Shown here piece after piece: positions 11,297-35,271 of a DNA stretch of 35,271 bases. The stretch lies in contig JAFLUU010000004.1 in assembly GCA_022508585.1 (NCBI GenBank), positions 1,484-36,754 on the forward strand, written 5' to 3'. The notes under the pieces are model-generated. The model worked only from the letters and a program-made list of their open reading frames with translations. It ran no database searches and was not told the DNA's origin. Origin of the DNA: Prevotellaceae bacterium (GTDB lineage: Bacteria > Bacteroidota > Bacteroidia > Bacteroidales > Bacteroidaceae). Made by a program: the position numbers and the translations under genes. Numbering within the stretch: position 1 is the first letter of the stretch; each line of letters begins with the position of its first letter.

Positions 11297-11322
11297 TTAC
11301 GTTAACATAACCCTTTAACACG

Positions 11323-11361
11323 CAGGGGCAAGTGAGAGCAATTCTCACTTGCCCCTGTTTC
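11323..11361 (+). terminator. Intrinsic terminator downstream of rpoC
   Basis: 15-bp arms CAGGGGCAAGTGAGA (11323-11337) / TCTCACTTGCCCCTG (11343-11357) then TTTC. Confidence 0.85.
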
Positions 11362-11500
11362 ATATATCCTATCTCCCACCCCATGTACCCTAACCGCAAA
11401 CTCACGACACCTTACGCTACTCAACCATCCTCCAATCACTATTTCGGCACATAATAACCTCACAAAAAGCCGCCCCAATTGTAAACAAACGTTAAATCCA

Positions 11501-11509
11501 CCCCCCCCC
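11501..11509 (+). repeat. Homopolymeric C9 tract upstream of lipoprotein gene 1
   Basis: 'gttaaatcca ccccccccct attaac'; ends about 59 nt upstream of the putative -7 box. Confidence 0.95.
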
Positions 11510-11568
11510 TATTAACATTTTTCTTTACATAAACAAGCGTTTTTATAATTATATTTTCTATATTTGCA

Positions 11569-11576
11569 GCAGAAGG
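11569..11576 (+). promoter_or_regulatory. Putative Bacteroidetes -7 element for the lipoprotein array
   Basis: TATATTTG matches TAnnTTTG; a clear -33 TTTG is not evident. Confidence 0.45.
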
Positions 11577-11653
11577 GTCAAACAACCTCATATTTACATT
11601 GCCCTATCGGCTCACCCTATCAGCATACACAATAACGCTAAATAATTTTTACG

Positions 11654-12775
11654 ATGAAAAGTTCATTACTCCCAATCCTCCTCTGCCTCGCAGCTTTTTG
11701 TGCCTCATGCAGTAAGCAGATGACAGAAGAAGAAATGCTCAACTTTCGGTCTGACATCTCCACAGCTTATGATTTTAATCCCCCACCTATAGAACAACGC
11801 CAATACGATTTACCTCCCGGCGTAAAGGGCCGGCATGTCAACCCTTATACATACTCTTTCGTTCTCGATAGCGACCTCAAGCAGTTCTACCAGGCAGGCA
11901 TTGACCTCAGAATGAAGGTCTTGGACAACTTCTATTCGCAGATAAGCGGCGCGAATTTCAATAACTCCGACTTCAGCAATCAATACCGCCCCCTCCTCGC
12001 GCCAAATGTGCGCGCCGAGATACGAAAATACGCCAAAACAAACCATGATGGCGACGACCTATACATGTGGCAGCCCTTCACGCCCCTGCCAATCGTTAGC
12101 AAGATATACGTGCGCTACCAAATCACCTACGAGGGCGATGATTGGTTTAGCATTACCCCTATGGGCGACGACACAGGCGTCCGCCTCCGCGTGGTGCTCG
12201 CCGGCAAAAACATGATGCCGGTAATAACAGAGTTGAAAAACCCCGCTTTCGATGTCAATATCGCCATTACCGACAGCAAAGGCGTCGGCAAAGGTTACAC
12301 CCTCAAGCAAGAGTGGGAGTATGGCGTGTTCAACAACAAAGGCTACAACAACACCTACTGGAACTACGTTGCCAACATAGTGTATAACACCTGCAACGGA
12401 CACAAAGCCGACAAAGGATTCATTACCGAAGCCGAACTTCTTGCTTTTGCCGACCGCATAGAGCGCAAGCGCGCACAATTCCTGCAAGATTTCTGTGCCG
12501 ACCTCACCGCACCCAACTACACCGCGCCAACATTCGTGCAAAAGTACTCCGGCAACCTCACAACCGCTATCTCAAGCGCACTAATCGAGACAAACAAGCC
12601 TACCGCCGCAAACGAAACCCTGCCCTCCGGACTGCAAGTAGTGCTCTACGGCAAAGAACTGCGTCCCCTCGTCGTAGGACTTAGCGACGAAACCCTCGGC
12701 ATAGACATACACAAAAACTTCGATGTCCATCGCAACAACCTGTGGTATGGCATAAGCATCAATAAAGACAAATAA
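11654..12775 (+). CDS. Array lipoprotein 1 (subfamily A)
   Basis: SPII signal 'MKSSLLPILLCLAAFCASC'; two-repeat core with 'ITYEGDDWFSITPMGDDTGVRLRVVLAGK...'; C-terminus GISINKDK. Confidence 0.85.
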   Translation: MKSSLLPILLCLAAFCASCSKQMTEEEMLNFRSDISTAYDFNPPPIEQRQYDLPPGVKGRHVNPYTYSFVLDSDLKQFYQAGIDLRMKVLDNFYSQISGANFNNSDFSNQYRPLLAPNVRAEIRKYAKTNHDGDDLYMWQPFTPLPIVSKIYVRYQITYEGDDWFSITPMGDDTGVRLRVVLAGKNMMPVITELKNPAFDVNIAITDSKGVGKGYTLKQEWEYGVFNNKGYNNTYWNYVANIVYNTCNGHKADKGFITEAELLAFADRIERKRAQFLQDFCADLTAPNYTAPTFVQKYSGNLTTAISSALIETNKPTAANETLPSGLQVVLYGKELRPLVVGLSDETLGIDIHKNFDVHRNNLWYGISINKDK

Positions 12776-12879
12776 ACTACGATTATGAAACGCCTCTCCC
12801 TCCCTCAACTGCTGCCATTTCTATGTGCGTGCGCAGTGTTATCACTGGCCTCGTGCTCAAAGTCCCTCACAGACTTGGG
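11858..12879 (+). repeat. ~1022-bp direct repeat, copy 1 (gene 1 body to gene 2 signal peptide)
   Basis: Constant offset of 4975 nt to 16833-17854; differences seen only in the gene 2/6 signal-peptide region (five counted). Confidence 0.9.
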
Positions 12880-13969
12880 ATATGACACGCAAGAAAGGAA
12901 TAGTACAATGATGGGAGTTCATAACTTTGCATTTGATAGCCCAAGTTCCAGAATTGTAACCCTCTCCCGAAATTACAACTACAACGTCTACTCCTTCATC
13001 TCCGACGAAGATGTGAGAAATCTCCTTGCAGCACACATCTACCTCCGCGAGAGCATCTTGCATGATTTCTATGCACGCATGAACACCAAGGACTTCTCGC
13101 AGGTTGCTTTCAACAACGAGTTCAATTCACTCTGCGCGCCGGATATTCTCGCCGTTGCTACTAACTACGCCAAGCAAAATCCAGACAACGCTCTGGGCGG
13201 TTGGCAAATCTTCAAACCGATGCCCGGCCTCAACGCTATAAAAGCGGAAAACGATATTACCTACGAGGGCAACGACTGGTTTAGCATCACACCAAAAGGC
13301 GATGATACGAAAGTTCGCTTAAAAGTAGTGATGACCCCTTACAAGATGCGCCCTGTCATTGTTGCGGTAGACAATCCTGCCTTCGGCATCAGTGCAACCA
13401 AACAGGCAGAGTCAAAGTTAGCCAAAGGCTACAAAAACATGAAGAAATTCATTTATAGCCCTGCTTATACATTCCCGAGAAGTAAATCCTACTTCGCTAC
13501 ACTCTCCCAAAAAATATCTCGCATCAGCGACGCAGCCCAACGGGGCGTAGTAACGGAAGGCGATTTCAGCCTCTTCCTTAATCAGACCATCAAAGAGCGA
13601 GAGCAAATGCTGACAGCGTTCCTCAACGAGCTCAGCGTAAAGGACATCAACAAGCACCGGCTCTCACGCAAGTATGACAATTGGCTTCACGCCGATGTAA
13701 ACAAAGCTATCATCTCTGCCCAAGAAAACAAAAGCGACAAATGGAACGCCTTTAATACCGGCAGCAACACACCCAACATCGTCTACGAGGGCAACAATTG
13801 GTTCCGACTCTCATCAGACAGCGACAAGGCAAAAGACATTCAAGTCCAGATGATACTAAACAAAGACGGACGGACACCAATCATCACCGGTCTTGTCAAT
13901 CCCGACGCAGGCATCGCCTTAGGCACCGACTTTAGCCTAAACATTTACTTATCTCGCGCCAGTCGTTAA
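12785..13969 (+). CDS. Array lipoprotein 2 (subfamily B)
   Basis: SPII signal 'MKRLSLPQLLPFLCACAVLSLASC'; 'ITYEGNDWFSITPKGDDTKVRLKVVM' and second 'IVYEGNNWFRLSSDSD' repeat. Confidence 0.85.
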   Translation: MKRLSLPQLLPFLCACAVLSLASCSKSLTDLGYDTQERNSTMMGVHNFAFDSPSSRIVTLSRNYNYNVYSFISDEDVRNLLAAHIYLRESILHDFYARMNTKDFSQVAFNNEFNSLCAPDILAVATNYAKQNPDNALGGWQIFKPMPGLNAIKAENDITYEGNDWFSITPKGDDTKVRLKVVMTPYKMRPVIVAVDNPAFGISATKQAESKLAKGYKNMKKFIYSPAYTFPRSKSYFATLSQKISRISDAAQRGVVTEGDFSLFLNQTIKEREQMLTAFLNELSVKDINKHRLSRKYDNWLHADVNKAIISAQENKSDKWNAFNTGSNTPNIVYEGNNWFRLSSDSDKAKDIQVQMILNKDGRTPIITGLVNPDAGIALGTDFSLNIYLSRASR

Positions 13970-14035
13970 ATATCTTTCGATAACTAACAGCGACCTCACA
14001 GTACCAAAGTCCACTTTCACCAACACGCAATCATT

Positions 14036-15259
14036 ATGAAACATTCTTTCCTCCCAACCCTCCTCTGCCTCGCAGCCCTCTTGTCTTCTTGCCACAGCAA
14101 CACAGAGGATATTGTCAGTCATAAACACGAAGCGGTCTACGCCTACGAAGGAATGTACACACAGACACAGTTTCTCCCTCACAAAGAGGATATTCCTTCA
14201 GTTCAGACAATAAACTCTAACACTCTTCCCGCGTCGAAAACCGGCGATGAAGTCTACACCTTTGTCTTGAGCAACGACATAAAGCAGTTTTATCAGGCAA
14301 GCATTGTCCTCAGAATGAAAGTATTGAACAACTTTTATTCAGACATAGCCGCAGGCAACTTTTATAACCCCGACTTTGCTCGGCAGTATCAGCCGCTTCT
14401 CTCGCCGTACATCAGAAAAGCCGTGCGCCAATACGCCAAAGCTGCCAATCCCCGCAACGACATCTACGCTTGGCAGCCTTTCACGCCCCTGCCCATCGCC
14501 AGCAAGATATACACACGCTACGAAATAACCTACGACGGCGATGACTGGTTTAGCATCAAACCTATCGGCGACGACACGAGTGTCAGACTTAAAGTTGTGC
14601 TTGCAGGCAAGGAGATGCACCCCGTCATTGCAGAGATAAGCAATCCCGCTTTCGACATCAATACAGGTCTTGGCACAAGCAATAACCTCGGCTCGGGCTA
14701 CACTTTCAATCAAGACTGGGAGTTCGGCATTTTCAATAATTGTAAGGGTAACCGCAATTATTGGAACTATATAGCCGGCATCATCTATCGCCACCGCGCG
14801 GCAGGCAAGAGTGGTAACAGCTTTATCTCCGAGGCCGAACTCTTGGCTTTTGCCGACCGCATAGAGCAGAAGCGTGAGCAATTCCTGCAGGACTTCTGTG
14901 CCGACCTTACCTCAACAGCCTACACAGCGCAAACCTTCTCTCAGAAGTATGACCGAAACATCACCCGCGATGTCGCCAAGTCTTGCAGCGAGTCCTCTCA
15001 GCCCTTGTCCCTCCTCCAGATGTTTGCGCCCAAAGACCGGAAGCACTACACCATCACCCATATCGACCGCGATTGGTACGGCATCTCCAGCGCCGACTCG
15101 TTAAACCCCGACCTCAAGGTGCAGGTAGTCTTCTACGAGCGAGAGATGCGCCCCCTCATCGTAGGTCTCTGCAACGATGCTCTCGGCATTGACAGCCAAT
15201 CGGACTTCGGTCTACGCCGTGACGCCTATGTAAGCGGCATACAAATAAACAAGCAGTAA
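14036..15259 (+). CDS. Array lipoprotein 3 (subfamily A)
   Basis: SPII signal 'MKHSFLPTLLCLAALLSSC'; 'ITYDGDDWFSIKPIGDDTSVRLKVVLAGK'; retains a second domain 'ITHIDRDWYGISSADSLNPDLKVQVVFYEREMRPLIVGL'. Confidence 0.85.
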   Translation: MKHSFLPTLLCLAALLSSCHSNTEDIVSHKHEAVYAYEGMYTQTQFLPHKEDIPSVQTINSNTLPASKTGDEVYTFVLSNDIKQFYQASIVLRMKVLNNFYSDIAAGNFYNPDFARQYQPLLSPYIRKAVRQYAKAANPRNDIYAWQPFTPLPIASKIYTRYEITYDGDDWFSIKPIGDDTSVRLKVVLAGKEMHPVIAEISNPAFDINTGLGTSNNLGSGYTFNQDWEFGIFNNCKGNRNYWNYIAGIIYRHRAAGKSGNSFISEAELLAFADRIEQKREQFLQDFCADLTSTAYTAQTFSQKYDRNITRDVAKSCSESSQPLSLLQMFAPKDRKHYTITHIDRDWYGISSADSLNPDLKVQVVFYEREMRPLIVGLCNDALGIDSQSDFGLRRDAYVSGIQINKQ

Positions 15260-15301
15260 CCCTCTGCCGTCGACCCGCCCCAAAACAAATACCTTTGCCT
15301 T

Positions 15302-16465
15302 ATGAAGGATCATCATTTCCCTACAAGCGCATTCCTTTTGTTCGTTGCAGTAATGCTGTTCGCCTCTTGCTCGCGGTCATTGACCGACTTGGGGTATTCA
15401 ACAAGGTATATCATATATGATAAGTGGGACAGGCGTACTCAACCTATCACCAATCCGGAGGAATACCTCTTGCTGTCAAGAACAGGCACCTACAAAACAA
15501 ATCAGATAATCTGCGATGAAGGTGTGAGAAATTTCCTCGCGGCACAAATATACTTCCGCCAGAACATCTTGAAGGATTTCTATGCGCAAATGAATGCCGC
15601 CGACTTCTCGTCCGACGCATTCGCCAAAGAGTATAGCTCCCTCTGCGCACCCGATATTCTTAACGCTGCAACGAACTACGCCAAAGCCAATCCCGACAAC
15701 GCTTTGGGCGGCTGGCAGGTCTTCAAACCTATGCCCGGACTCGACACAAAGAAAGCCAAATACGACATCGCCTATGAGGGCGACGACTGGTTTAGCATCA
15801 CTCCCGACGGCGACGATGTGGGAGTAAGGCTTCGCATCGTTTTGACGGCCGACAAACTGCGTCCTGTCATTGTAGCGGTAGAAAATCCCGCCTTTGATGT
15901 GAGTGCTGCCATAGAAGCCGGCTCCAATGTAGGCAAGGGCTACAAGAATGTAGACAACTACTCACTCGGCGTCGTCAGGTTGCCTCTAAGAAATCAATCT
16001 TACTTCGATTGGCTCGCTAAAAAACTGTCGCACATCAGCGGTGTCGCAGAGCGAGGCGTTGTAACGGAAGCCGACATCACTGATTTCTACAACGATATGG
16101 TTGAAGACAGAGCGATGCAGCTCACCGCGTTTATTAGCGCGCTCGGCGCCACAGACTTCAACAATCGCCAGCTCTCGCACAAGTATGGCAATTGGCTGAA
16201 TATAGATGTGAACCGAGCAATCACCGCCAATGCCGGCAAAAGCGGCAAGTGGAACGCCTTCAACACCGGCGGCGAAAAGACAAACATCGCCTACGAGGGC
16301 AACAACTGGTTCCGCCTCTCGTCTGATGCTGACAGCACAAAAGAGATTATGGTGCAAATGGTGCTCTGCGGCAACAAGCAGTTACCTATCATCACCGGTC
16401 TCAACAGTCCTACCGACGGCATAGCATTAGGCACCGACTTTAGCCTAACTCGCGCCAGTCGTTAA
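15302..16465 (+). CDS. Array lipoprotein 4 (subfamily B)
   Basis: SPII signal ending 'MLFASC'; 'SRSLTDLGYST' after the Cys; two YEGxxWF repeats. Confidence 0.85.
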   Translation: MKDHHFPTSAFLLFVAVMLFASCSRSLTDLGYSTRYIIYDKWDRRTQPITNPEEYLLLSRTGTYKTNQIICDEGVRNFLAAQIYFRQNILKDFYAQMNAADFSSDAFAKEYSSLCAPDILNAATNYAKANPDNALGGWQVFKPMPGLDTKKAKYDIAYEGDDWFSITPDGDDVGVRLRIVLTADKLRPVIVAVENPAFDVSAAIEAGSNVGKGYKNVDNYSLGVVRLPLRNQSYFDWLAKKLSHISGVAERGVVTEADITDFYNDMVEDRAMQLTAFISALGATDFNNRQLSHKYGNWLNIDVNRAITANAGKSGKWNAFNTGGEKTNIAYEGNNWFRLSSDADSTKEIMVQMVLCGNKQLPIITGLNSPTDGIALGTDFSLTRASR

Positions 16466-16484
16466 ATATCTGTCGATAACTAAT

Positions 16485-16571
16485 AGCGACGAAACCCTCG
16501 GCATAGACATACACAAAACTTTCGATGTACATCGCAACAACATATGGTATGGCCTGCGACTAAACAAATAG
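16485..16571 (+). pseudogene. Orphan 3' fragment of a subfamily A lipoprotein gene
   Basis: Translates in frame to SDETLGIDIHKTFDVHRNNIWYGLRLNK*, matching the C-terminus of genes 1 and 5 (SDETLGIDIHKNFDVHRNNLWYGISINKDK), with no start or upstream body. Confidence 0.85.
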
Positions 16572-16604
16572 TAACAAACACCCACTACACAAACTACAAT
16601 AGCT

Positions 16605-17750
16605 ATGAAAAAAACATTTCTCCCAATCCTCCTCTGCCTCGCAGCCTTATGTTCTTCCTGCAACAAGCAGATGACAGACAATGATATGCCTTATGTGGAA
16701 AAAGACGGTCGCACATTCTATGGCCGTTCCTATTTAGTCGAGGACTTAAATCCTCCACCCATTACCCAACGCCAGAACTTTAAGCCCCAAAGCTTCTACA
16801 CCGCAGGCTATAACAGCAACACCGATTATTCCTTCGTTCTCGATAGCGACCTCAAGCAGTTCTACCAGGCAGGCATTGACCTCAGAATGAAGGTCTTGGA
16901 CAACTTCTATTCGCAGATAAGCGGCGCGAATTTCAATAACTCCGACTTCAGCAATCAATACCGCCCCCTCCTCGCGCCAAATGTGCGCGCCGAGATACGA
17001 AAATACGCCAAAACAAACCATGATGGCGACGACCTATACATGTGGCAGCCCTTCACGCCCCTGCCAATCGTTAGCAAGATATACGTGCGCTACCAAATCA
17101 CCTACGAGGGCGATGATTGGTTTAGCATTACCCCTATGGGCGACGACACAGGCGTCCGCCTCCGCGTGGTGCTCGCCGGCAAAAACATGATGCCGGTAAT
17201 AACAGAGTTGAAAAACCCCGCTTTCGATGTCAATATCGCCATTACCGACAGCAAAGGCGTCGGCAAAGGTTACACCCTCAAGCAAGAGTGGGAGTATGGC
17301 GTGTTCAACAACAAAGGCTACAACAACACCTACTGGAACTACGTTGCCAACATAGTGTATAACACCTGCAACGGACACAAAGCCGACAAAGGATTCATTA
17401 CCGAAGCCGAACTTCTTGCTTTTGCCGACCGCATAGAGCGCAAGCGCGCACAATTCCTGCAAGATTTCTGTGCCGACCTCACCGCACCCAACTACACCGC
17501 GCCAACATTCGTGCAAAAGTACTCCGGCAACCTCACAACCGCTATCTCAAGCGCACTAATCGAGACAAACAAGCCTACCGCCGCAAACGAAACCCTGCCC
17601 TCCGGACTGCAAGTAGTGCTCTACGGCAAAGAACTGCGTCCCCTCGTCGTAGGACTTAGCGACGAAACCCTCGGCATAGACATACACAAAAACTTCGATG
17701 TCCATCGCAACAACCTGTGGTATGGCATAAGCATCAATAAAGACAAATAA
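16605..17750 (+). CDS. Array lipoprotein 5 (subfamily A)
   Basis: SPII signal 'MKKTFLPILLCLAALCSSC'; identical to gene 1 from 'FVLDSDLKQFYQ' to the C-terminus. Confidence 0.85.
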   Translation: MKKTFLPILLCLAALCSSCNKQMTDNDMPYVEKDGRTFYGRSYLVEDLNPPPITQRQNFKPQSFYTAGYNSNTDYSFVLDSDLKQFYQAGIDLRMKVLDNFYSQISGANFNNSDFSNQYRPLLAPNVRAEIRKYAKTNHDGDDLYMWQPFTPLPIVSKIYVRYQITYEGDDWFSITPMGDDTGVRLRVVLAGKNMMPVITELKNPAFDVNIAITDSKGVGKGYTLKQEWEYGVFNNKGYNNTYWNYVANIVYNTCNGHKADKGFITEAELLAFADRIERKRAQFLQDFCADLTAPNYTAPTFVQKYSGNLTTAISSALIETNKPTAANETLPSGLQVVLYGKELRPLVVGLSDETLGIDIHKNFDVHRNNLWYGISINKDK

Positions 17751-17854
17751 ACTACGATTATGAAACGCCTATCTTTCTCTCAACTGCTGCCATTTCTATG
17801 TGCGTGCGCAGTGTTATCGCTGGCCTCGTGCTCAAAGTCCCTCACAGACTTGGG
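16833..17854 (+). repeat. ~1022-bp direct repeat, copy 2 (gene 5 body to gene 6 signal peptide)
   Basis: As for copy 1; the same ORFs appear in the other frames and strand (identical 160-aa antisense and 69-aa +frame ORFs), supporting nucleotide identity. Confidence 0.9.
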
Positions 17855-19091
17855 CTACGAGTCCCAATTCACCTCAAGCAGTCGTGATATATGGCAACCA
17901 AACACATCATACGGCACGATGAGCTGGAGTCCTGTGCCGAGTGGCGGTTTCTTTGCAGGCGGATCTTATACTACCCACTACAAATTTGACAGCCATAAGC
18001 TCATCAATGACGCCAATGTCAACAATCTGTTTAAGGCGTATGTCAACATCAAGACACAAGTGCTGCAAAACTTCTATGCAGACATGAACACTCAGACATT
18101 TGCCAATACAGCCTTCAGCAAAGAGTATGTCCCTCTTTGCTCTCCCGACATACTGAGTGCAACAGACCGATTTGCCCTTGGCAACACCGGCAGCGCCATA
18201 GGCGGCTGGCAAATCTTTAAGCCCACACCCGGCCTCGACGAACCAAATGCAAAGTACACCATTGCATACGAGGGCGACGACTGGTTCAGCGTCAAGTCCG
18301 CAGACAATAACGTTGGCGTGAGGCTGCGCATTGTGCTGACGCCCGACAAACTGCGCCCCATCATCGTGGCGGTAGACAATCCCGCCTTTGGCATCAGCGT
18401 CAATCAGGCAGCCAACACCGACTTAGGCAAAGGCTACCCCTATACAAAGAATTTTATACTCGGGCTTACCATTACAGGAGCAAACATCTTCTCGTGGCTA
18501 AACAAGACCTTCGTACGCGAGAGCGGCGCAAAGCAGGGAGAAGCTATCACGCAGGCGCACTTCGAGCACTTCTTCCAAACAAATATCGCCCAAAGAGAGC
18601 AACTATTGTCTAATTTCTACAGCGAACTCCGCTCCCCGAAGTTTACCAAGCACAAGTTCTCAAACAGATACACCACTTGGCTCAACTACGACATAGACCA
18701 AACCGCATACACCTCTAAAGGCAAAAAACATAATAAGCATTTAGGCAAATGGAATGCCTTTACTGCCGATAGCTACACGCAACAAATCATCTACGAAGGC
18801 GACGACTGGTTTCGCCTCGCTGTAGAGCAACCCGACACAAGCCTCAACACCTCATCTTTGCAAGACATACATGTGCGCATAGTAACGTTTGGCCGCGACA
18901 AACGCCCCATTATCGTAGGGCTATTCAATCCGCAGAAAAACATAAGCGCAGGTGCAGACATTGCTAAGTACATTATGCCCTCCTATTTCAGTATCTGGCG
19001 AAAGCAACCACCTACACCGAGCATCAACACCGCTCACAGACAAAGCAATTACACCTCTCACCGCAGCAATTATACTTCTGCCAATAACTAA
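17760..19091 (+). CDS. Array lipoprotein 6 (subfamily B, with C-terminal extension)
   Basis: SPII signal near-identical to gene 2; two YEGDDWF repeats; unusual tail 'AKYIMPSYFSIWRKQPPTPSINTAHRQSNYTSHRSNYTSANN'. Confidence 0.8.
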   Translation: MKRLSFSQLLPFLCACAVLSLASCSKSLTDLGYESQFTSSSRDIWQPNTSYGTMSWSPVPSGGFFAGGSYTTHYKFDSHKLINDANVNNLFKAYVNIKTQVLQNFYADMNTQTFANTAFSKEYVPLCSPDILSATDRFALGNTGSAIGGWQIFKPTPGLDEPNAKYTIAYEGDDWFSVKSADNNVGVRLRIVLTPDKLRPIIVAVDNPAFGISVNQAANTDLGKGYPYTKNFILGLTITGANIFSWLNKTFVRESGAKQGEAITQAHFEHFFQTNIAQREQLLSNFYSELRSPKFTKHKFSNRYTTWLNYDIDQTAYTSKGKKHNKHLGKWNAFTADSYTQQIIYEGDDWFRLAVEQPDTSLNTSSLQDIHVRIVTFGRDKRPIIVGLFNPQKNISAGADIAKYIMPSYFSIWRKQPPTPSINTAHRQSNYTSHRSNYTSANN

Positions 19092-19138
19092 CAGCGAGCC
19101 GACAGGAACAAAAACAAACCACATAAATCATTATAACT

Positions 19139-20346
19139 ATGAGACTTACACAATTTACTACCCCCCCCTATTATTGCTCATATTAGCAATTTTAATCCTC
19201 GTATCCTCATGCTCTAAGTCCCTCACAGACTTAGGATATGACACGCAGGCAAAACCGGACAGAGACTATACTCTGCTTGAGACCTATCAAGCACCGTTAC
19301 CTGAAACACCTTTTTATCGCCCGACTAATCAAAACTACGACGTATACTCCTACATAGCAGATGAAGACATACAAAACATTTTCAATGCCTATGTCTCCCT
19401 GCGGCTCAAGGTCTTACACAAGTTCTATTCAGAGATAAGCACAGACTATTTCTACCCAAAGACCTTCGACAAGGAGTATGCCACCCTTTGTTCGCCGGCC
19501 GTTGTCAAAGCCGCCGCCAACTATGCCGCCAGCAACCCCAACAGCGCCATAGGCGGCTGGCAGATACTCAAGCCTACTCTCGGTCTTGACGCGCCGAATG
19601 CAGAATACACCATAGCCTATGAGGGCAACGACCTCTTTAGCGTCAAGCCCGCAGGCGACAGTGTCGGCGTAACACTGCGCATAGAGCTCACTCCCGACAA
19701 GATGCGCCCCGTCATCGTAGGAGTAGTCAATCCGGCATTCGACATTAACGTCTGCCAGTCATTATTTGCCAACGTAGGCAAAGGGTATAAGTATCCACTG
19801 CCCTTTAGCTACAACGCCACCAAATCATACGCCCGCAGCGAGGACTACAGCCGCGACTTGGCAAAAGCCATACACAAGACAGTTAGTTCCAAAAGCCTTC
19901 ACTCTATCACAGAAGCCAGTTTTCACTTCTTTCTTGCAGGAATTAACACAGCCAGATGGCAACTGCTTAATAGCCTCGTCGAAGAATTGCATAACAAAGA
20001 TTTCAACAAGCAGCAGTTTACGCGCGAGCACTCCACACTGCTGCACACCAATGTAGCCAAAGCCATAGACACGGCGAGCAACATCGACAAGGCAGACAGC
20101 CTCGGCCAATGGGAAGCCTTTTATGTTGGCGGCACATTCCATGATATCGCCTACAAAGGGAACAACTGGTACCGCATAACGTCGATGGATAACAATCGCA
20201 AGACTATATACGTGCAAATGGTGGTCAGCAAGGACAAAGACCGCACTCCTATCATTACAGGCTTGAGCAATAACGACATGGCTATCAACGTAGGTGCAGA
20301 CTTTAATACCCGTCGCCTTCCCACCAACAGCTGGAGGTGGAAATAA
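19139..20346 (+). CDS. Array lipoprotein 7 (subfamily B), out of frame with its ATG at a C8 tract
   Basis: ATG at 19139 is out of frame with the SCSKSLTDLGYDTQ... body. With C9 it would read MRLTQFTTPPLLLLILAILILVSSCSKSLTDLGYDTQ; with C8 it reads MRLTQFTTPPYYCSY*. Confidence 0.8.
19161..19168 (+). repeat. Homopolymeric C8 tract in the signal-peptide coding region of lipoprotein gene 7
   Basis: 'atttacta cccccccc tattattgc'. Confidence 0.95.
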
Positions 20347-20415
20347 CAATAACACTTGCCGACCAATAGCGCACCAAGCACTATAGCCTTATTAACAACG
20401 GCGCAGCCGTCGCGA

Positions 20416-20466
20416 GCCGCATTGGTAAACGTCGCGCGAAGCGCGGTGTACCAACAAGAATGCGGC
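20416..20466. repeat. Nested imperfect palindrome
   Basis: GCCGCATTGGTA ... CGCGC gaa GCGCG ... TACCAA caag AATGCGGC. Confidence 0.7.
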
Positions 20467-20479
20467 GAGAGCGTAAGCG

Positions 20480-20525
20480 ACAACTCCGCTCCACAGCGCG
20501 TCAGTGCGCTATGGAGCGGAGTTGT
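20480..20525. repeat. 20-bp-arm inverted repeat
   Basis: ACAACTCCGCTCCACAGCGC / GCGCTATGGAGCGGAGTTGT, loop GTCAGT, one mismatch. Confidence 0.85.
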
Positions 20526-20607
20526 TCGTCGTAGCGCCGGCAGCAGATGTCGTGCGCGCACTATCTATAGTCGTGCAAACAGAGAGAATAAGCCTCCGCA
20601 TCGCAAG

Positions 20608-20813
20608 AAAAGGCCTCGGCACACGATTTTTGAGCCTCCGCGCCAGATTTTTGCTCGTGATAGTTTAATAATTCATATAAGAATTTTCAAAAAATCATAT
20701 AAGAATTTCCGGAAATTTATATAAGAATTTTTGAAAATTCTTATATGATTTTTTAAGGTTTCACGACATTTCTACGAATTTCGAGGCTCAAAAATCGCGC
20801 GCGGAGGCCTTTT
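20608..20813. repeat. ~206-bp inverted-repeat element with AT-rich palindromic core
   Basis: 31-bp terminal arms 20608-20638 / 20783-20813 with three mismatches; core 20-bp arms AAAAAATCATATAAGAATTT (20689-20708) / AAATTCTTATATGATTTTTT (20735-20754); three direct (c/t)ATATAAGAATTT units. Confidence 0.8.
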
Positions 20814-20899
20814 GTAGGTGTACGCACGCGCAAAAAATTGAAACGCACGACGAGAAAGTGGGGAATAGTGTTGTTTTGGGATTGTTCGGCAGCATCTTG

Positions 20900-21712
20900 C
20901 TACTCGCCCAGGAACTTTCTGACGGCGGCGAGCTCACTGTCGGAGAACTTCTGCGAGCGCATATACTGCTGGTAGCCCTGTCGGGAACCGATAGTGCCGA
21001 ACTCGCGCTGCAGGGCGGCGAAGGTGGGCATCATGATATGGCCTTCCTCCACTGCGCATCGCACGACGAGGGCTACGCGACGCCCTTTGTGGCCGTCGAT
21101 GAGGCTGTGCATCTTGGCCAACAGCGTTTGAGGATCGGCGTGCAGGATATGCAGTCCTGTGGCAGCGGTCTCTGCCGATGGCGCAGGGGCAACGGATACT
21201 GCCGACTCGCGGTGGGGCTCGGCGGCGAGGGCAGAGGGTGCGCCGAGGCGGTAGAGGCGCATGGGGCGACGCGGACGGAAGCTGTGGAGGGCGGCACGCA
21301 GCACACCCTGCACCTTGAGGCGCGCAGCCGGCTCGGCAATGGTGATGGTCTGATACTCCGGATTGGTGGGCACGAGACGCACGCTATGGGTGGCGTCGTC
21401 GCGATAGTATTGCTTGACGACAACCTCTTCGCCGTCGAGCAGAGCGACCACGATGTCGCCGTTGTGCGGAGTGGCTGCAGCGTCGAAGACGAGCATATCG
21501 CCGCTCTTGATGTCGGGCATCATGGAGTCGCCGCCGGCTTCGAGCAGAAAGGTGGTGTCGGGGTCGAGACCGAGGAAGTCGGTGAAGTTAAACCGCTCCT
21601 CGGGGAGGTCTAACAGTCCGTTGGGGCGACCGCAGGAGGCGCGGTAGTCGTACATCAGCAGGCCGGGCTGCCGGTCGCTCAGCTTGTAGTAGATAGCTTG
21701 TGCTGTTTTCAT
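20900..21712 (-). CDS. UmuD-like S24 family peptidase with C-terminal extension
   Basis: Cys-Gly cleavage-like site 'YRASCGRPNG', Ser motif 'GGDSMMPDIKSGDMLVFD', Lys motif 'EEVVVKQYY'; extra ~100-aa C-terminal region. Confidence 0.85.
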   Translation of the reverse strand: MKTAQAIYYKLSDRQPGLLMYDYRASCGRPNGLLDLPEERFNFTDFLGLDPDTTFLLEAGGDSMMPDIKSGDMLVFDAAATPHNGDIVVALLDGEEVVVKQYYRDDATHSVRLVPTNPEYQTITIAEPAARLKVQGVLRAALHSFRPRRPMRLYRLGAPSALAAEPHRESAVSVAPAPSAETAATGLHILHADPQTLLAKMHSLIDGHKGRRVALVVRCAVEEGHIMMPTFAALQREFGTIGSRQGYQQYMRSQKFSDSELAAVRKFLGE

Positions 21713-21848
21713 GGTTCTAAATAGATTTAAGGTTTTTATTTTATTGTATTATGGTGTACATTCCTCAAGGAACAATGCGGACTTGCTGCATAAACAGTCG
21801 TTACGACCGCGGACTTGGCGCACATTCCGCCGAACTTGGCACATAAAG

Positions 21849-21863
21849 CCATCCTTAGGATGG
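21849..21863. promoter_or_regulatory. Palindromic operator candidate CCATCCTTAGGATGG
   Basis: 15-nt palindrome 2 nt downstream of the -7 box; core shared with 26436-26450. Confidence 0.6.
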
Positions 21864-21865
21864 TG

Positions 21866-21896
21866 CAAAGGTAGGAGTTTTGTGCGGCATACCAAA
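21866..21896 (-). promoter_or_regulatory. Promoter for the S24 peptidase gene
   Basis: On the minus strand: TTTG-N19-TACCTTTG, matching the Bacteroidetes -33/-7 consensus (-33 at 21893-21896, -7 at 21866-21873). Confidence 0.65.
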
Positions 21897-22112
21897 GGGG
21901 AGGCGAGCGTTTTTCTGCGTGAGATGATTGCTAACGATTGCGTCTGCTTGCAGGCAAAAGATAGCAACGCCGAATAGTTGGAAACACCCCTCCCGAAGCA
22001 GTACTTTTGCACTGCGAACGGAGAGCGAGACCGACGAACGGCGGCTTGCCGGCGAGGCTCGGCAGAAGCTACCTGCGTAACGACATAACCTTATTTATAA
22101 TACCAAAAAACT

Positions 22113-22556
22113 ATGAAACATTTACTCTCTCTTAACTTCACCTTGGCTGAGCTGACGCGCTCCGCCATTGCCTGCAGGGCGGGGCTGGACAATCTGCCGT
22201 CGCTCAAGGATCAAGACAACCTGCTGGCACTGTGCCACGACATACTGCAACCGCTGCGCGAGAGCTGGGGCGAGCCGATCATAGTGAGCTCGGGCTACCG
22301 CTGCCGCGAGCTCAACGAGATGGTGGGCGGCGTGAAATACAGCGACCACATCTATGGTAATGCTGCCGATATCCGCACGTTGAGCAACCGCCGCATAGAC
22401 AACCGCTGCCTCTTCGATCTGGCCGTGAGGCTGATGGGCGAGGGCAAGCTGAAGAACGTGAAGCAGATTATCGACGAGCATGACTACAGCTGGCTGCATA
22501 TCTCACGACAGGACGGCAGGTCGACGAAACGCAACCAAGTACTCCACCAGTCGTAA
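22113..22556 (+). CDS. M15-family peptidase (D-Ala-D-Ala carboxypeptidase-like)
   Basis: 'FTLAELTRS', 'IIVSSGYRCRELNEMVGGVKYSDHIYGNAADIRT' motifs. Confidence 0.85.
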   Translation: MKHLLSLNFTLAELTRSAIACRAGLDNLPSLKDQDNLLALCHDILQPLRESWGEPIIVSSGYRCRELNEMVGGVKYSDHIYGNAADIRTLSNRRIDNRCLFDLAVRLMGEGKLKNVKQIIDEHDYSWLHISRQDGRSTKRNQVLHQS

Positions 22557-22763
22557 CGACCGGTCTTATGCGGCAAGTCCGCACCGCTAAGCAATGTTTT
22601 ATGCGGCATGTCCGCACCGCCGAGAGGTGTTTTGTGCGACAAATCGGTAATCGGCAGCAGGCGCAGGGCTATGGCTGACCGCGGAGCCACAATCCTCGGC
22701 GCAGGCTGCACATTGCATACAACAACAACTTTTATTATTAACATCTAAAAAACTTTAGAAATT

Positions 22764-23144
22764 ATGGGACTTTTAAGAACCGGTATCGTGAAGCGCTCTG
22801 TGTTTAAGGACGGCAAGAAGCTGTTCCCCACCGTGCTGCTCTACTCCAACATCACCGACCGCGAGCTTATCAACTACATGCTCCAGAACTCGCAGGTGGG
22901 CCGCACTACCGCTGTGGCCGCCGTGGAAGCCTTCAAGGCTGCGTTTACCACCTTTCTGCTCAACGGCCACACTATGGTGGTGCCGGCGGTGGGCACCTTC
23001 AGCCTCTCGGCTAAATGCAAGGCGGTGGATAGTCTCAAAGATGTGGGCAGAAGTATTCAGCGCCTCAGGATACGCTACACACCGGAGAGCATTATCAAAG
23101 TGGCTGCCAAGAGTTCGCAATTTCGCGGCTTGCTGGAGGGGTAG
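22764..23144 (+). CDS. HU-like DNA-binding protein
   Basis: HU-fold pattern 'ITDRELINYMLQNSQVGRTTAVAAVEAFKAAFTTFLLNGHTMVVPAVGTFSLSAK'. Confidence 0.8.
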   Translation: MGLLRTGIVKRSVFKDGKKLFPTVLLYSNITDRELINYMLQNSQVGRTTAVAAVEAFKAAFTTFLLNGHTMVVPAVGTFSLSAKCKAVDSLKDVGRSIQRLRIRYTPESIIKVAAKSSQFRGLLEG

Positions 23145-23215
23145 CGAGTGGCTGCAGAGCCAAGGCTACATCGGCTTATCAACAATCTTTACTAATCTTA
23201 AATCTAATTAACACC

Positions 23216-23704
23216 ATGGCATTGATCGACAACACCAAGACTAACTACGGAAAATTGGGATATTACCCCGTGAAGCTCGAAGATGAGAACACCGGCGTAG
23301 TGAAATACTACGCGCGCCTCGCCCCTTACTCCAAGAAGGAGAAGGAGGATATTAACGCCTGGGCGGCTCAGTTTAAGAAGGTGAGCGAAGCGAGCATGAA
23401 GGTGGCCTTTGAGGCTCTGGCCGAGGCTATCCAGTACTTCACTCTCAACGGCCACTCCGTGAGCCTCGAGGGTCTGGGCTCCTTTGGCCTCAGCTGCAAG
23501 AGCGGCGTGTGGGACGAGAAGAACCAGAAGTGGAAATCGGCAGGCAAGACCTCCGCGAGCGATGTGAACAGCACTGACATAAGGAGCGTGCATGTGCGTT
23601 TCCGCACCGGCACCTTGCTGCGTGAGAAGATGAAGTCCTGCCGCTTGTTTGACGTGACCAAATCGCCTTTCGGCCAGCAGTTTCTCGGCATGGCCAACGT
23701 CTAA
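23216..23704 (+). CDS. HU-related DNA-binding protein
   Basis: 'SEASMKVAFEALAEAIQYFTLNGHSVSLEGLGSFGLSCKSG' HU-like pattern; same locus. Confidence 0.75.
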   Translation: MALIDNTKTNYGKLGYYPVKLEDENTGVVKYYARLAPYSKKEKEDINAWAAQFKKVSEASMKVAFEALAEAIQYFTLNGHSVSLEGLGSFGLSCKSGVWDEKNQKWKSAGKTSASDVNSTDIRSVHVRFRTGTLLREKMKSCRLFDVTKSPFGQQFLGMANV

Positions 23705-23725
23705 CCGCCAAAAACAAGCAGCCTT

Positions 23726-23839
23726 ATGTGCAACGACAAGAACAATAACAAGACGATGACCATCATCAACGCCATACTGACGGCTATCAGCACTATCATC
23801 GGTGCGCTGTTTATGCACTCGTGCCTATCGTTGGTATAG
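23726..23839 (+). CDS. Small hydrophobic protein (37 aa), 'smalll protein'-like
   Basis: ATG...TAG encodes MCNDKNNNKTMTIINAILTAISTIIGALFMHSCLSLV; resembles the short TM peptides that accompany HU/amidase cassettes in Bacteroidales. Below the ORF track cutoff. Confidence 0.5.
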   Translation: MCNDKNNNKTMTIINAILTAISTIIGALFMHSCLSLV

Positions 23840-23921
23840 GCACGACAGGCAAAACCGGAGGCACGGACGGCATTAGCCATGCGCTCCGCGACAATTGCCG
23901 CCCGGCGGTCTGCACTTGACG

Positions 23922-23960
23922 AAATCCCCTGCCCCGAACACTCGGGACGGGGGATTTTTT
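23922..23960 (+). terminator. Intrinsic terminator after the M15/HU cassette
   Basis: AAATCCCCTGCCCCGAACACTCGGGACGGGGGATTTTTT hairpin with T run. Confidence 0.75.
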
Positions 23961-24094
23961 ATAATAATTGCACTTTTTCAGGTATTATTTTTCATAATGT
24001 TATTTAATAAGCCTATCTTTGTACATGGTTTGTATAGGTTTGCTGAAAACTCTGTGCCGACAACCGCTATAATTTACTCCCTTAATCACACGTC

Positions 24095-26353
24095 ATGAAA
24101 AAGTTATTCTACTCCCTGCTGTTTATATTTATCTGCGCCGGCCTGCAAGCGCAGGAGGCCGACCTAAGGAAGATGTCGTCGATGATTGCTCAGAAACTGC
24201 ACACGGCATATAAGGCCAACGCCCTGCACAAAACGGACAAAAGGCGCAGCGAGGCTATCTTCGCATTAGTGAAGCTGCAAAAGGGCGACAACGATGATGC
24301 GCTGCTGAGCCGAGGGTGCAAGATTGTAGACAGGATAGGCGACATCTGCTTCACTATGCTGCCGGTCAACAGCATTGCGGAACTGTCTGCCGACAGCCGT
24401 GTGATAAGGATGGAGGCTAATCCACCCATGAGTGTGCTCTTAGACAGCGTGCAGAAGAGCCATAACCTGATACCTGCATACGAAGGCAAAGATCTGCCAC
24501 AGGCATACACGGGCAGCGGAGTGGTGGTAGGAGTGGCAGACGTGGGGTTTGATTTCACCAACCCGATGTTTCTCGACAAGGAGGGCAAGAGCAGAATCAA
24601 GTCTGCGTGGGATATATACACCGGCAAGGGTGAAGGATTTCAAGGGATAGGCTCGCTATACACCACCCACGAGGAACTGATGAGGGCGCGCGGCACTTGC
24701 GACACTACGCAATATCATGGCACACACGTAATGGGCATTGCTGCAGGCAGTGCGGTGAAAGGGGGCAAATACAGGGGCATAGCGTATGAGGCCGACATCG
24801 TAACAAGTCTGGCCATGCTGTCGGGCTATACGGAAGATAACCTGAAAAGTCTGATAGAAGACATTAACCGGACATTAGAAGATGGGAATGCCGACCCTTA
24901 CTGGTCTCTCTATTTCGAAGATGACCTGTCGCTATCGGGAACAATGGATATTTTGGCTATCAAGCACATCTTTACTTATGCCGCCGAGCACAATCAGCCG
25001 TGCGTGGTGAACTGTAGCTGGGGCTCGCAGATGAGATTGGTCAGCGACTACACATTAGCGAACGAGATATTCACGGAACTGACCGGCCCGGGGCGCATCA
25101 TTGTCTGCGCGGCAGGGAATAGCTCCGACACCGACATATATAGGGTGAAACTGAATGGGGAAATCTTAGAGACTCCACTATGGTTTAAGTCGTCGATGAC
25201 GCCTGCCATAACGCTACGCTCGTCAAAAGCGTTCAGCATCACGATGCACCCTGACATAGACGGCTTCGGCACTATAGCGTTGTCGTCGGCAGACATTCCG
25301 TTGGCGACTGAAGACAGCGTGTTTGAGCAATATATCTACAAGGGAGACGAGACTAATCGCTTCGGCGTAATGAATGCGGCAAAATATATCATGGAGGAGG
25401 GAGACACGGCCTACGCTATGACTCTGCAGCTGCCCGACACGAAACTGAACACGTACAATTCGCCCTCGCTCAACCTCAAAATAGAGGGAGAAGGCGCGGT
25501 GGAGATCATGGGGCAGTATGATTGCGCCGGATTTACCAGATTTTCGCTCAATCCGAAGAATTGTCCTTACACCGTGTCGACACCTGCTGCATACGACGAC
25601 GCGATAGCCGTGGGATTTACAAGCAATCGTAATGAGTTGCCCAACATTTATAAAGACACGATAAAGGCTTCGTACAACCTGAACGAGGAAGGAAAGATTG
25701 TGTCGTGGTCCGGAACGGGGCCGACGCTTAGCGGAAATATCAAGCCGGACATCAGTGCCGCAGGATACAATATTGTGTCGGCGTACAGCAGCTTATTGCG
25801 CAAGGGGTACTACTTTGCAGAAGAAGATGTCTACAAACCTTACATTATCGACTCGCTCAGCTATGACGGCAAGCCGTATTACATGTATGTGATGAGCGGT
25901 ACGTCAATGTCTGCGCCTGTGGTTACCGGCATCATCGCCTTATGGCTACAGGCTGACCCGACTCTTACGCCTAAGCAAATCAAAGAACTCTTTGCCAAGA
26001 CTGCCACGCACCCCGAAGAGGACGAGACATACCCCAACAACCGCTATGGTTACGGAGTGATAGATGCGTACAAGGGATTGTGCGAAATTCTAAATCTGAA
26101 CACAAATATACCGGACTTTTCCGACCGGCAACCACAGAGGCTGAAAATCTCTGTTGACAATAAGAAGCTCATGCTGAACACCAATACGGAGGTTACGGTA
26201 AGTATTTACAGTCTTAACGGACATCTGCAAAGAAGAACGACAACGGACAATGGCGTTGTAGACCTGTCGGATCTGCAACCTGCAGTGTATGCAGTACAGA
26301 TAAACTCCGACGATCCGTCTGCGACAGGCTCCACACTGATTAGGCTGCAATAA
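24095..26353 (+). CDS. Secreted S8 (subtilisin-like) serine peptidase with T9SS-type C-terminal region
   Basis: Signal peptide; catalytic 'VVVGVADVGFDF', 'HGTHVMGIAAG', 'MSGTSMSAPVVTG'; C-terminus 'EVTVSIYSLNGHLQRR...LQPAVYAVQINSD'. Confidence 0.9.
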   Translation: MKKLFYSLLFIFICAGLQAQEADLRKMSSMIAQKLHTAYKANALHKTDKRRSEAIFALVKLQKGDNDDALLSRGCKIVDRIGDICFTMLPVNSIAELSADSRVIRMEANPPMSVLLDSVQKSHNLIPAYEGKDLPQAYTGSGVVVGVADVGFDFTNPMFLDKEGKSRIKSAWDIYTGKGEGFQGIGSLYTTHEELMRARGTCDTTQYHGTHVMGIAAGSAVKGGKYRGIAYEADIVTSLAMLSGYTEDNLKSLIEDINRTLEDGNADPYWSLYFEDDLSLSGTMDILAIKHIFTYAAEHNQPCVVNCSWGSQMRLVSDYTLANEIFTELTGPGRIIVCAAGNSSDTDIYRVKLNGEILETPLWFKSSMTPAITLRSSKAFSITMHPDIDGFGTIALSSADIPLATEDSVFEQYIYKGDETNRFGVMNAAKYIMEEGDTAYAMTLQLPDTKLNTYNSPSLNLKIEGEGAVEIMGQYDCAGFTRFSLNPKNCPYTVSTPAAYDDAIAVGFTSNRNELPNIYKDTIKASYNLNEEGKIVSWSGTGPTLSGNIKPDISAAGYNIVSAYSSLLRKGYYFAEEDVYKPYIIDSLSYDGKPYYMYVMSGTSMSAPVVTGIIALWLQADPTLTPKQIKELFAKTATHPEEDETYPNNRYGYGVIDAYKGLCEILNLNTNIPDFSDRQPQRLKISVDNKKLMLNTNTEVTVSIYSLNGHLQRRTTTDNGVVDLSDLQPAVYAVQINSDDPSATGSTLIRLQ

Positions 26354-26435
26354 CGTCTGGGTTAGGTGTGGTCGGGTTAGGTTATTCGTGCATCAACATA
26401 AAGAAAATAATCCAAAACTGGACTTAGAGATAAAT

Positions 26436-26450
26436 CTATCCTTAGGATAG
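26436..26450. promoter_or_regulatory. Palindromic operator candidate CTATCCTTAGGATAG
   Basis: 15-nt palindrome directly upstream of the -33 box; shares ATCCTTAGGAT with 21849-21863. Confidence 0.55.
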
Positions 26451-26451
26451 T

Positions 26452-26483
26452 TTGGCTTTTCGCTCGCCTTGCACTAACTTTGT
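26452..26483 (+). promoter_or_regulatory. Promoter for the Lrp/AsnC gene
   Basis: TTTG-N20-TAACTTTG. Confidence 0.65.
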
Positions 26484-26509
26484 ACTGCAAAACAAAAACA
26501 CAATAGAAT

Positions 26510-26968
26510 ATGGCTGCAAAAATAGACACCCTTGACTTAAAAATCCTCGATATTATAACCAAGGACGCCAGAGCTTCGCTGAGCGACGTGGCGGAAGTGT
26601 GCGGCGTGTCGCGCGCGGTGGTGCATCAGCGCGTGGGTAAGATGGTGGAGAAGGGCGTTATACTCGGCTCCGGCTACAAAGTGAACCCGAAGAGCGTCGG
26701 TTACTCCACCTGTACCTATGTAGGCATCAATCTCGAGAGGGGTAGTATGTACAACGACGTGGTTGAGAGTCTCCGCCGCATTCCGGAAATAGTGGAGGGG
26801 CACTTTACCACCGGCAACTACACTATTCTGGTCAAGCTGTACGCTAATGACAACGAGCATCTGATGGATTTGCTCAACAACAAGATTCAACAGATACCGG
26901 GGGTAATCTCTACGGAGACGCTCATCTCCTTAGAGCAAAGCATCGACCGCCAACTGCCCATCTTGTAG
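26510..26968 (+). CDS. Lrp/AsnC family transcriptional regulator
   Basis: 'LDLKILDIITKDARASLSDVAEVCGVSRAVVHQRVGKMVEKGVI' HTH plus RAM-like C-terminal domain. Confidence 0.9.
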   Translation: MAAKIDTLDLKILDIITKDARASLSDVAEVCGVSRAVVHQRVGKMVEKGVILGSGYKVNPKSVGYSTCTYVGINLERGSMYNDVVESLRRIPEIVEGHFTTGNYTILVKLYANDNEHLMDLLNNKIQQIPGVISTETLISLEQSIDRQLPIL

Positions 26969-30479: not shown

Positions 30480-31421
30480 ATGGCAAAGATCATAGGCACA
30501 GGCGAAACAGTAACCGACTTCATCATTCGCAACGGCAAGCCCGAAGAGATGGTGTGCGGCGGTTCGTGCTACAACTCCATTATCAGCATCGGGCGTTGCG
30601 GTATCAGCGCAGCGTTTATCGGCGAGGTCGGCGACGATAAGCTCGGGCTGCGCACCAAAGCAATGCTCAGGGAGAACAATGTCGACGACACCTTTCTGAC
30701 TATCACTCCGGGCAAAAAATCGCAGCTCTCCCTCGCCTTTCTCAACGAGCGCAACGATGCGGAATACGCCTTTTACAAAGACCATGCCGCCGACATTTTC
30801 CCAACCAAGCTCCCCACTGTCAGCAACGGCGATGTACTCCTTTACGGCTCCTACTACGCCCTCAATCCCACCATTCACGACGCACTGAGCCGCTACCTCG
30901 CCGCAGTCAAAGCCGCCGACGGCATCATCTATTACGACATCAACTTCCGCGCCAGCCACCTCGCCGACCGAGAGCGCATTATGCCCTCGCTCATAGACAA
31001 CCTCAGCAAGGCAACCATTGTGCGCGGCTCTCACGAAGATTTCCTCAATCTTTTCGATACCGACGACACCGCACAGATATACGACAAAGTCAGCGCTTAC
31101 TGCCCCAACCTCATCATCACTCGCGGCGGTACGGCTATCAATCTGCTCACGCCCTCGCTAAGAAAGGACTATGCCGTGCAGCCCACCCATGTTGTCAGCA
31201 CTGTGGGTGCCGGCGACAACTTCAATGCCGGCATCGTCTGCAGCATCATCGCCAACAAGATTGGCAAGACTGACATCGCCACGCTTACCGAGCCTCAGTG
31301 GGACGAACTCATCGCCACCGCCACCACCTTTGCGCAGGAAGTCTGCGGCACCACCGACAACTACATCAGCCAAGCCACAGGACAAAGATTTAAGTCAAGA
31401 CTGCTGCGCACGATTTCCTAA
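30480..31421 (+). CDS. PfkB-family carbohydrate kinase
   Basis: 'GGSCYNSIISIGRCG' and 'VVSTVGAGDNFNAGIVCSI' signatures. Confidence 0.9.
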   Translation: MAKIIGTGETVTDFIIRNGKPEEMVCGGSCYNSIISIGRCGISAAFIGEVGDDKLGLRTKAMLRENNVDDTFLTITPGKKSQLSLAFLNERNDAEYAFYKDHAADIFPTKLPTVSNGDVLLYGSYYALNPTIHDALSRYLAAVKAADGIIYYDINFRASHLADRERIMPSLIDNLSKATIVRGSHEDFLNLFDTDDTAQIYDKVSAYCPNLIITRGGTAINLLTPSLRKDYAVQPTHVVSTVGAGDNFNAGIVCSIIANKIGKTDIATLTEPQWDELIATATTFAQEVCGTTDNYISQATGQRFKSRLLRTIS

Positions 31422-31695
31422 TAAACCGCAACCTTTCCAACAGTGTCGGTTTCGTGCGAGCCACAGCAATGTTATAACGATTTTGCATATTGATAAGCAG
31501 GTCGGGATTGATGCCCAAAGAAGCCTCTATCATCAACGCAAAATCCGCCGACACAGAGCGTTTGCCATTCAGTATCTCATTAAGTTGCGTATATGGCACA
31601 TCGATAAGTTCCGCAAACTTTCTTTGCGACATATTGCGACATTCCAATTCCTCTTTTAATATCTCGCCCGGGTGTGTCGGTATTCTTGTTTCCAT
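31390..31695 (-). CDS. higA: HigA-family addiction module antidote protein
   Basis: 'HPGEILKEELECRNMSQRKFAELIDVPYTQLNEILNGKRSVSADFALMIEASLGINPDLLINMQNRYNI'; ATG at 31695 gives METRIPTHPGEIL. Confidence 0.88.
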   Translation of the reverse strand: METRIPTHPGEILKEELECRNMSQRKFAELIDVPYTQLNEILNGKRSVSADFALMIEASLGINPDLLINMQNRYNIAVARTKPTLLERLRFIRKSCAAVLT

Positions 31696-31700
31696 ATCTC

Positions 31701-32009
31701 CTATTGATAATGGTTTGTAATATCTGTTATAATGCAAATAGTCAGCATCTTTTCTGCCCCCTCCTCACGCAGTTTGAACTGCAAGCGGTAGTGGTAGTCT
31801 ATCCTTATGGAGTAATAACCATTGCTAAGAGTTTCAAAGTTTAGCGAATTAAAGACAAACAAGTCCTCGAGTCTTGTCGCTGCCAACAGAGTATCTATTC
31901 TCCTCTGGTATTTTTGTACTACCTGCGGCTGAAAGCGATATTTCTTGTTCTTGCATTTCCCCTTTTCGTAGAGTTCCTGCAAATAGTCTTTCTCGTATTC
32001 TACAACCAC
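31701..32009 (-). CDS. higB: HigB/RelE-family toxin
   Basis: 'FQPQVVQKYQRRIDTLLAATRLEDLFVFNSLNFETL...YSIRIDYHYRLQFKL'; immediately upstream of higA; GTG start. Confidence 0.82.
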   Translation of the reverse strand: MVVEYEKDYLQELYEKGKCKNKKYRFQPQVVQKYQRRIDTLLAATRLEDLFVFNSLNFETLSNGYYSIRIDYHYRLQFKLREEGAEKMLTICIITDITNHYQ

Positions 32010-35206: not shown

Positions 35207-35271
35207 ATTTAATGTCGTCAAAAGCGCACCCAACATCGTCGAAAATCATAGAAAAGGCCTCCGCGGGGGGG

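Follow-up and report, generated by a model that had tools for sequence, protein, structure and literature searches.

Two gene pairs in a tandem array of co-oriented lipoprotein genes share a near-identical block that we consider, with a probability of about 0.7, to be a recent gene-conversion tract, that is, the product of non-reciprocal homologous recombination between two A-B pairs. The array lies in the window, a 35,271-nt stretch of a contig from a Prevotellaceae bacterium, between rpoC and a gene for an S24-type peptidase. It consists of seven same-strand genes in the order A1, B1, A2, B2, A3, B3 and B4, with an A-tail remnant between B2 and A3 (Table 1). On this reading, the array, which comes from an uncultured bacterium, would be a clean example of how tandem genes for surface proteins overwrite one another, with the tract and its edges mapped.

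Table 1 Features of the lipoprotein gene array and its surroundings (positions in the window).
Feature	Position	Strand	Length (aa)	Remark
C9 homopolymer upstream of A1	11501–11509	+		about 50 nt upstream of a TATATTTG box, a putative promoter
A1, lipoprotein gene	11654–12775	+	373	contains block copy 1; beta strands 1-2 of domain 2 missing
Divergent post-signal-peptide linker of A1	11739–11857	+		48% identical to A3
Block copy 1	11858–12879	+		perfect part 11858–12795; five mismatches 12796–12844
B1, lipoprotein gene	12785–13969	+	394	signal peptide B3-like, body B2-like
A2, lipoprotein gene	14036–15259	+	407	intact two-domain A protein
B2, lipoprotein gene	15302–16465	+	387	
A-gene 3′ tail remnant	16484–16579	+		against the A1/A3 tail, 83% over 96 nt, 93% over the first 70 nt
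A3, lipoprotein gene	16605–17750	+	381	carries block copy 2
Block copy 2	16833–17854	+		perfect part 16833–17770
B3, lipoprotein gene	17760–19091	+	443	
B4, lipoprotein gene	19139–20346	+		natural ATG at 19139 out of frame with the body, owing to the C8 run
C8 homopolymer in B4 signal-peptide codons	19161–19168	+		C9 or C6 would be in frame

The block and its boundaries

Positions 11858-12879 and 16833-17854 align at a constant offset of 4975, and the base-by-base comparison revealed only five mismatches; the initial annotation, which had described a near-identical block of ~1022 bp on these terms, was therefore right to the base. It had placed the mismatches within the first ~80 nt of the B gene, and all of them indeed fall in its first 60 nt (12796, 12799, 12800, 12803 and 12844 in block copy 1). 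The preceding 938 bp (11858-12795) are 100% identical to the other copy. When the matching columns of the A1-B1 versus A3-B3 alignment were permuted 500 times, the longest identical run reached a maximum of 56, as against the 938 observed.

Along the same alignment, the identity is 82% in the signal-peptide codons (11654-11738), 48% in the linker (11739-11857), 100% over 11858-12775, 95% over 12776-12879 and 46-61% in the B body; the flanks that directly adjoin the block are about 46-48% identical. The flanks had been called divergent, which holds for the linker and the B body but not for the A signal-peptide codons themselves, and the flanks are homologous but old. The near-identity thus covers only a part of the paralogs; its edges are sharp and the sequence on either side is divergent, which is the pattern of gene conversion. 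In the rest of the genome, no third copy of the block was found above 69% identity over its length, with the exception of a 70-nt match of 93% that belongs to the A-tail remnant. This remnant joins the 3′ flank of B2 at an AGCGAC microhomology and is another recombination scar in the array.

Conflicting ancestry of tract and flanks

In the tree, subfamilies A and B split earlier than the species did (support of 95/97 for the A clade), and A1-A3 and B1-B4 are expansions within this lineage. The ancestry of the tract is in conflict with that of its flank in B1: its body is sister to the B2 body (support 95/97), whereas its signal peptide, by identity, goes with that of B3 (94%). The signal-peptide segment is the only one that matches between B1 and B3; in the bodies, about half of the positions differ and there are indels. 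In addition, A1 and A3 have in common a deletion of about 30-35 codons in domain 2, which is present neither in A2 nor in the four aligned A genes of relatives. Because B1 is a mosaic, A1 and A3 share this deletion and the block is flanked by sequence of old divergence, we infer that the copying was non-reciprocal.

In the proposed mechanism, a tract of at least 938 bp would have been copied from one A-B pair into the other, its ends lying a short way into the mature A domain and in the signal peptide of the B gene that follows. The copying, with RecA-type recombination as the presumed agent, would have halted where the homology ends: upstream in the divergent linker that follows the A lipobox, downstream in the divergent B body. 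A transfer from A3-B3 into A1-B1 seems slightly more probable than the reverse, since the B1 body is sister to that of B2 and the B1 signal peptide is that of B3, while the B2 signal peptide resembles those of relatives. Two events, or old homology, instead of a single tract may account for the five mismatches in the final 84 bp. A likely effect of such a transfer is that the exposed N-terminal linkers and the B bodies would remain diverse while the A domain is homogenised.

Copy number and the short-read assembly

The genome is a short-read metagenome assembly, and the repeat statistics were taken from a sample of 61 contigs (677 kb). Among the 117 genuine contig ends in this sample, 28 have an overlap of exactly 55 bases with another sequence of the sample, an indication of a SPAdes-type de Bruijn assembly with k=55. 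Short-read metagenome assemblies resolve few repeats, their read pairs spanning <1 kb, and metaSPAdes merges strain differences (PMC8021871). Short reads cannot span a perfect repeat of 938 bp, and the contig therefore probably passes the block as a loop in the graph.

The 4975-bp unit could accordingly be present in another copy number (a single copy, at least three, or a mixture of states). Alternatively, the assembler could have collapsed two similar but non-identical copies and walked the result twice. We regard this account by assembly as improbable, though the best placed of the alternatives. It is consistent with the contig-end overlaps, with the standing of the block as the only exact repeat in the sample longer than 93 bp, the length of the next longest, and with the finding that no 16S was found in the genome; the collapsing of bulges could also have erased true differences (PMC8021871). 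However, each copy is bordered at either end by sequence of its own, and what separates the copies is unique; a loop of the form R-X-R with two entries and two exits is therefore forced by the graph. In addition, the five nearby mismatches escaped collapsing. By this reasoning, the gene order is forced by the unique flanks, while the copy number of the block and its perfect identity are not proven by the assembly. For near-perfect repeats within short-read metagenome contigs in general, a long-read check is needed before the copy number is trusted. If the 938-bp direct repeats are a real pair, a deletion or amplification of 4975 bp is to be predicted.

A dispersed, partly palindromic intergenic repeat (TATAAGAATTTTTGAAAATTCTTATA ... 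TTTCACGACATTTCTACG ... GGAGGCC) was also noticed at 20641-20825 of the window and at many contig ends. It has 68 merged copies in the 677 kb, of which 55 lie at contig ends, and no match in 26 loci of relatives. The contig terminates with seven consecutive G (35265-35271) that follow GGCCTCCGC; contig L102 ends likewise, with longer G runs. The terminal G run probably arose as an artefact of sequencing or assembly at the intergenic repeat.

Recombination edges in relatives and duplication as an alternative

The relatives, the nearest of which include rumen bacteria, contain further recombination edges. In the two genomes G007 and G016, a B-A pair adjoins the same downstream gene. The B 5′ ends of the two are 91% identical over 199 nt and the A bodies 96.7% over 1159 nt, while the intervening B body is only about 45-50% identical, and the breakpoints lie within the B and A signal peptides. 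The B body at this locus has been swapped for a different one, an independent case of the same boundary logic. We do not claim an inter-species transfer of the A body, as the neighbouring sequence is 92-95% identical against its 96.7%. In G009 (L066:15422-16285, minus strand), a B-type signal peptide with an SLTDLGY linker is fused to an FGE-sulfatase domain (PF03781, E 1.3e-37), the relative of which in G012 has a different signal peptide. Owing to these two cases, recombination edges near the signal peptide can be said to recur.

The locus itself is also variable. In G012, rpoC is directly adjoined by a gene for an Lrp-type regulator, which in the window sits at 26510; the array is thus part of a region of ~15 kb (11297-26509) that is present here and absent in G012. 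The Lrp-type regulator gene of G001 has a family member immediately upstream.

Such changes bear on the possibility that the block is the leftover of a tandem duplication by unequal crossing-over, the flanking bodies having been replaced later. The A-B-A-B-A-B-B order and the A-tail remnant indicate that the array has grown and shrunk by duplication and deletion, and the replacement of a body at an orthologous locus is observed in the relatives. Nevertheless, at least two extra replacements would have to follow a duplication so recent that 938 bp have not changed since; one conversion is simpler, and we hold this course of events to be slightly less probable still than an artefact of the assembly. 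A single unequal crossover fits less well because, by reasoning, it duplicates or deletes whole segments and leaves no homogenised block between divergent flanks. Duplication of the whole A-B pair followed by very fast diversification of the linker and the B body is very improbable: the linkers are hypervariable across all aligned members, which speaks for it, but the B1 and B3 bodies are about half different, with indels, beside 938 unchanged bases, and the B1 body groups with B2. A recent whole-gene duplication is ruled out by the tree and the identity profile. The initial annotation had suggested gene conversion or unequal recombination rather than whole-gene duplication; conversion is preferred to duplication here as well, since the B1 and B3 bodies are anciently diverged and the B1 body is sister to that of B2, whereas simple unequal crossing-over is the weaker half of the suggestion.

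A genus-restricted lipoprotein family

A lipoprotein-type signal peptide was found in all seven genes of the array, in B4 only once the frame is corrected, and by inspection the lipobox contains an SC (A2 residues 18-19) that is invariant in all aligned members. In searches of Pfam and NCBIfam, no family scored above the curated cut-off for the array proteins. Among the 61 genomes searched, homologs are confined to the genus, and the profile search found them in 9 of its 19 genomes. A scan of a genome collection with A1 alone returned no relatives; with the alignment, it matched only Bacteroidaceae/Bacteroidales MAGs, including one from goat rumen and two RUG isolates.

A sequence search of solved structures gave nothing credible. 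The AlphaFold2 models of A2 and A1 (mean pLDDT 71) predict two repeats, each with helices and then a sheet of four strands; in A1, and hence in A3, strands 1 and 2 of the second sheet are missing. In the fold search of the A2 model against the PDB, there was no significant match, and the best Foldseek match of the A1 model, YbjP (PDB 9tg4), was not significant either (E 0.38, probability 0.38, TM 0.19/0.40). YbjP, which is bound to AcrABZ-TolC in this structure, is a lipoprotein too but has no sequence match to A1. YbjP carries DUF3828, and a DUF3828/NTF2-like fold may be considered as a candidate for the A proteins. The array probably encodes lipoproteins of the outer membrane that have two alpha+beta domains.

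Poly-C tracts and a possible variation system

With C9 or C6 in place of its C8 run, B4 would encode a complete lipoprotein signal peptide. Five C/G runs of at least 8 were counted in the 677-kb sample, runs at contig ends excluded, and two of the five are at the array. This excess of poly-C near the array, noticed after the fact, is suggestive. The C8 run in B4 is possibly a site of phase variation, and B4 may equally be a simple pseudogene.

A wider reading would be a surface-lipoprotein system, restricted to one genus of uncultured, rumen-type Bacteroidaceae, in which recombination with its anchor in the signal-peptide region produces variants. Copies, whether in tandem or dispersed, would exchange mature bodies and signal-peptide modules. 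The 938-bp direct repeats would drive deletion or amplification of the 4975-bp four-gene unit, and the poly-C tracts would switch single members on or off. We regard this wider reading as speculative and unlikely to hold as a whole.

Elsewhere in the window (31390-32009, minus strand), a pair of overlapping short ORFs resembles, by eye, a HigB/HigA-type toxin-antitoxin pair.

Comparison with known systems

Porphyromonas gingivalis belongs to the Bacteroidales, the same order as the source bacterium. In this species, recombination by allelic exchange and gene conversion likewise diversifies surface proteins, lipoproteins included (PMC5266723), but other gene families are involved and the exchange is described as one between strains, whereas here it would be between paralogs of one chromosome. 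In two reports on the Vpma proteins of Mycoplasma agalactiae (PMC2268961, PMC11868660), a family of variable surface lipoproteins is likewise altered by DNA rearrangement; Vpma, as described there, uses a dedicated site-specific recombinase and inversions, neither of which was seen at the array. A search for inverted repeats of 60 nt and longer, as would be expected of a shufflon or other invertible variation, found none, and no recombinase was recognised on inspection of the window ORFs.

The lpl cluster of Staphylococcus aureus also consists of tandem paralogous lipoprotein genes (PMC4470592). That organism is unrelated and the likeness is one of arrangement; the array described here differs in having two alternating subfamilies and a mapped conversion tract. 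Paralogs within one prokaryote genome that are more alike than their orthologs elsewhere have been attributed to gene conversion and concerted evolution (PMC6053082), and the array resembles these cases in that its paralogs are more alike than the orthologs of other species. In contrast to that survey, which deals with long-lasting concerted evolution of conserved pathway genes, we describe a recent, partial tract in genus-restricted lipoproteins. The kind of event is already known, and here it is well delimited and placed in an unannotated family.
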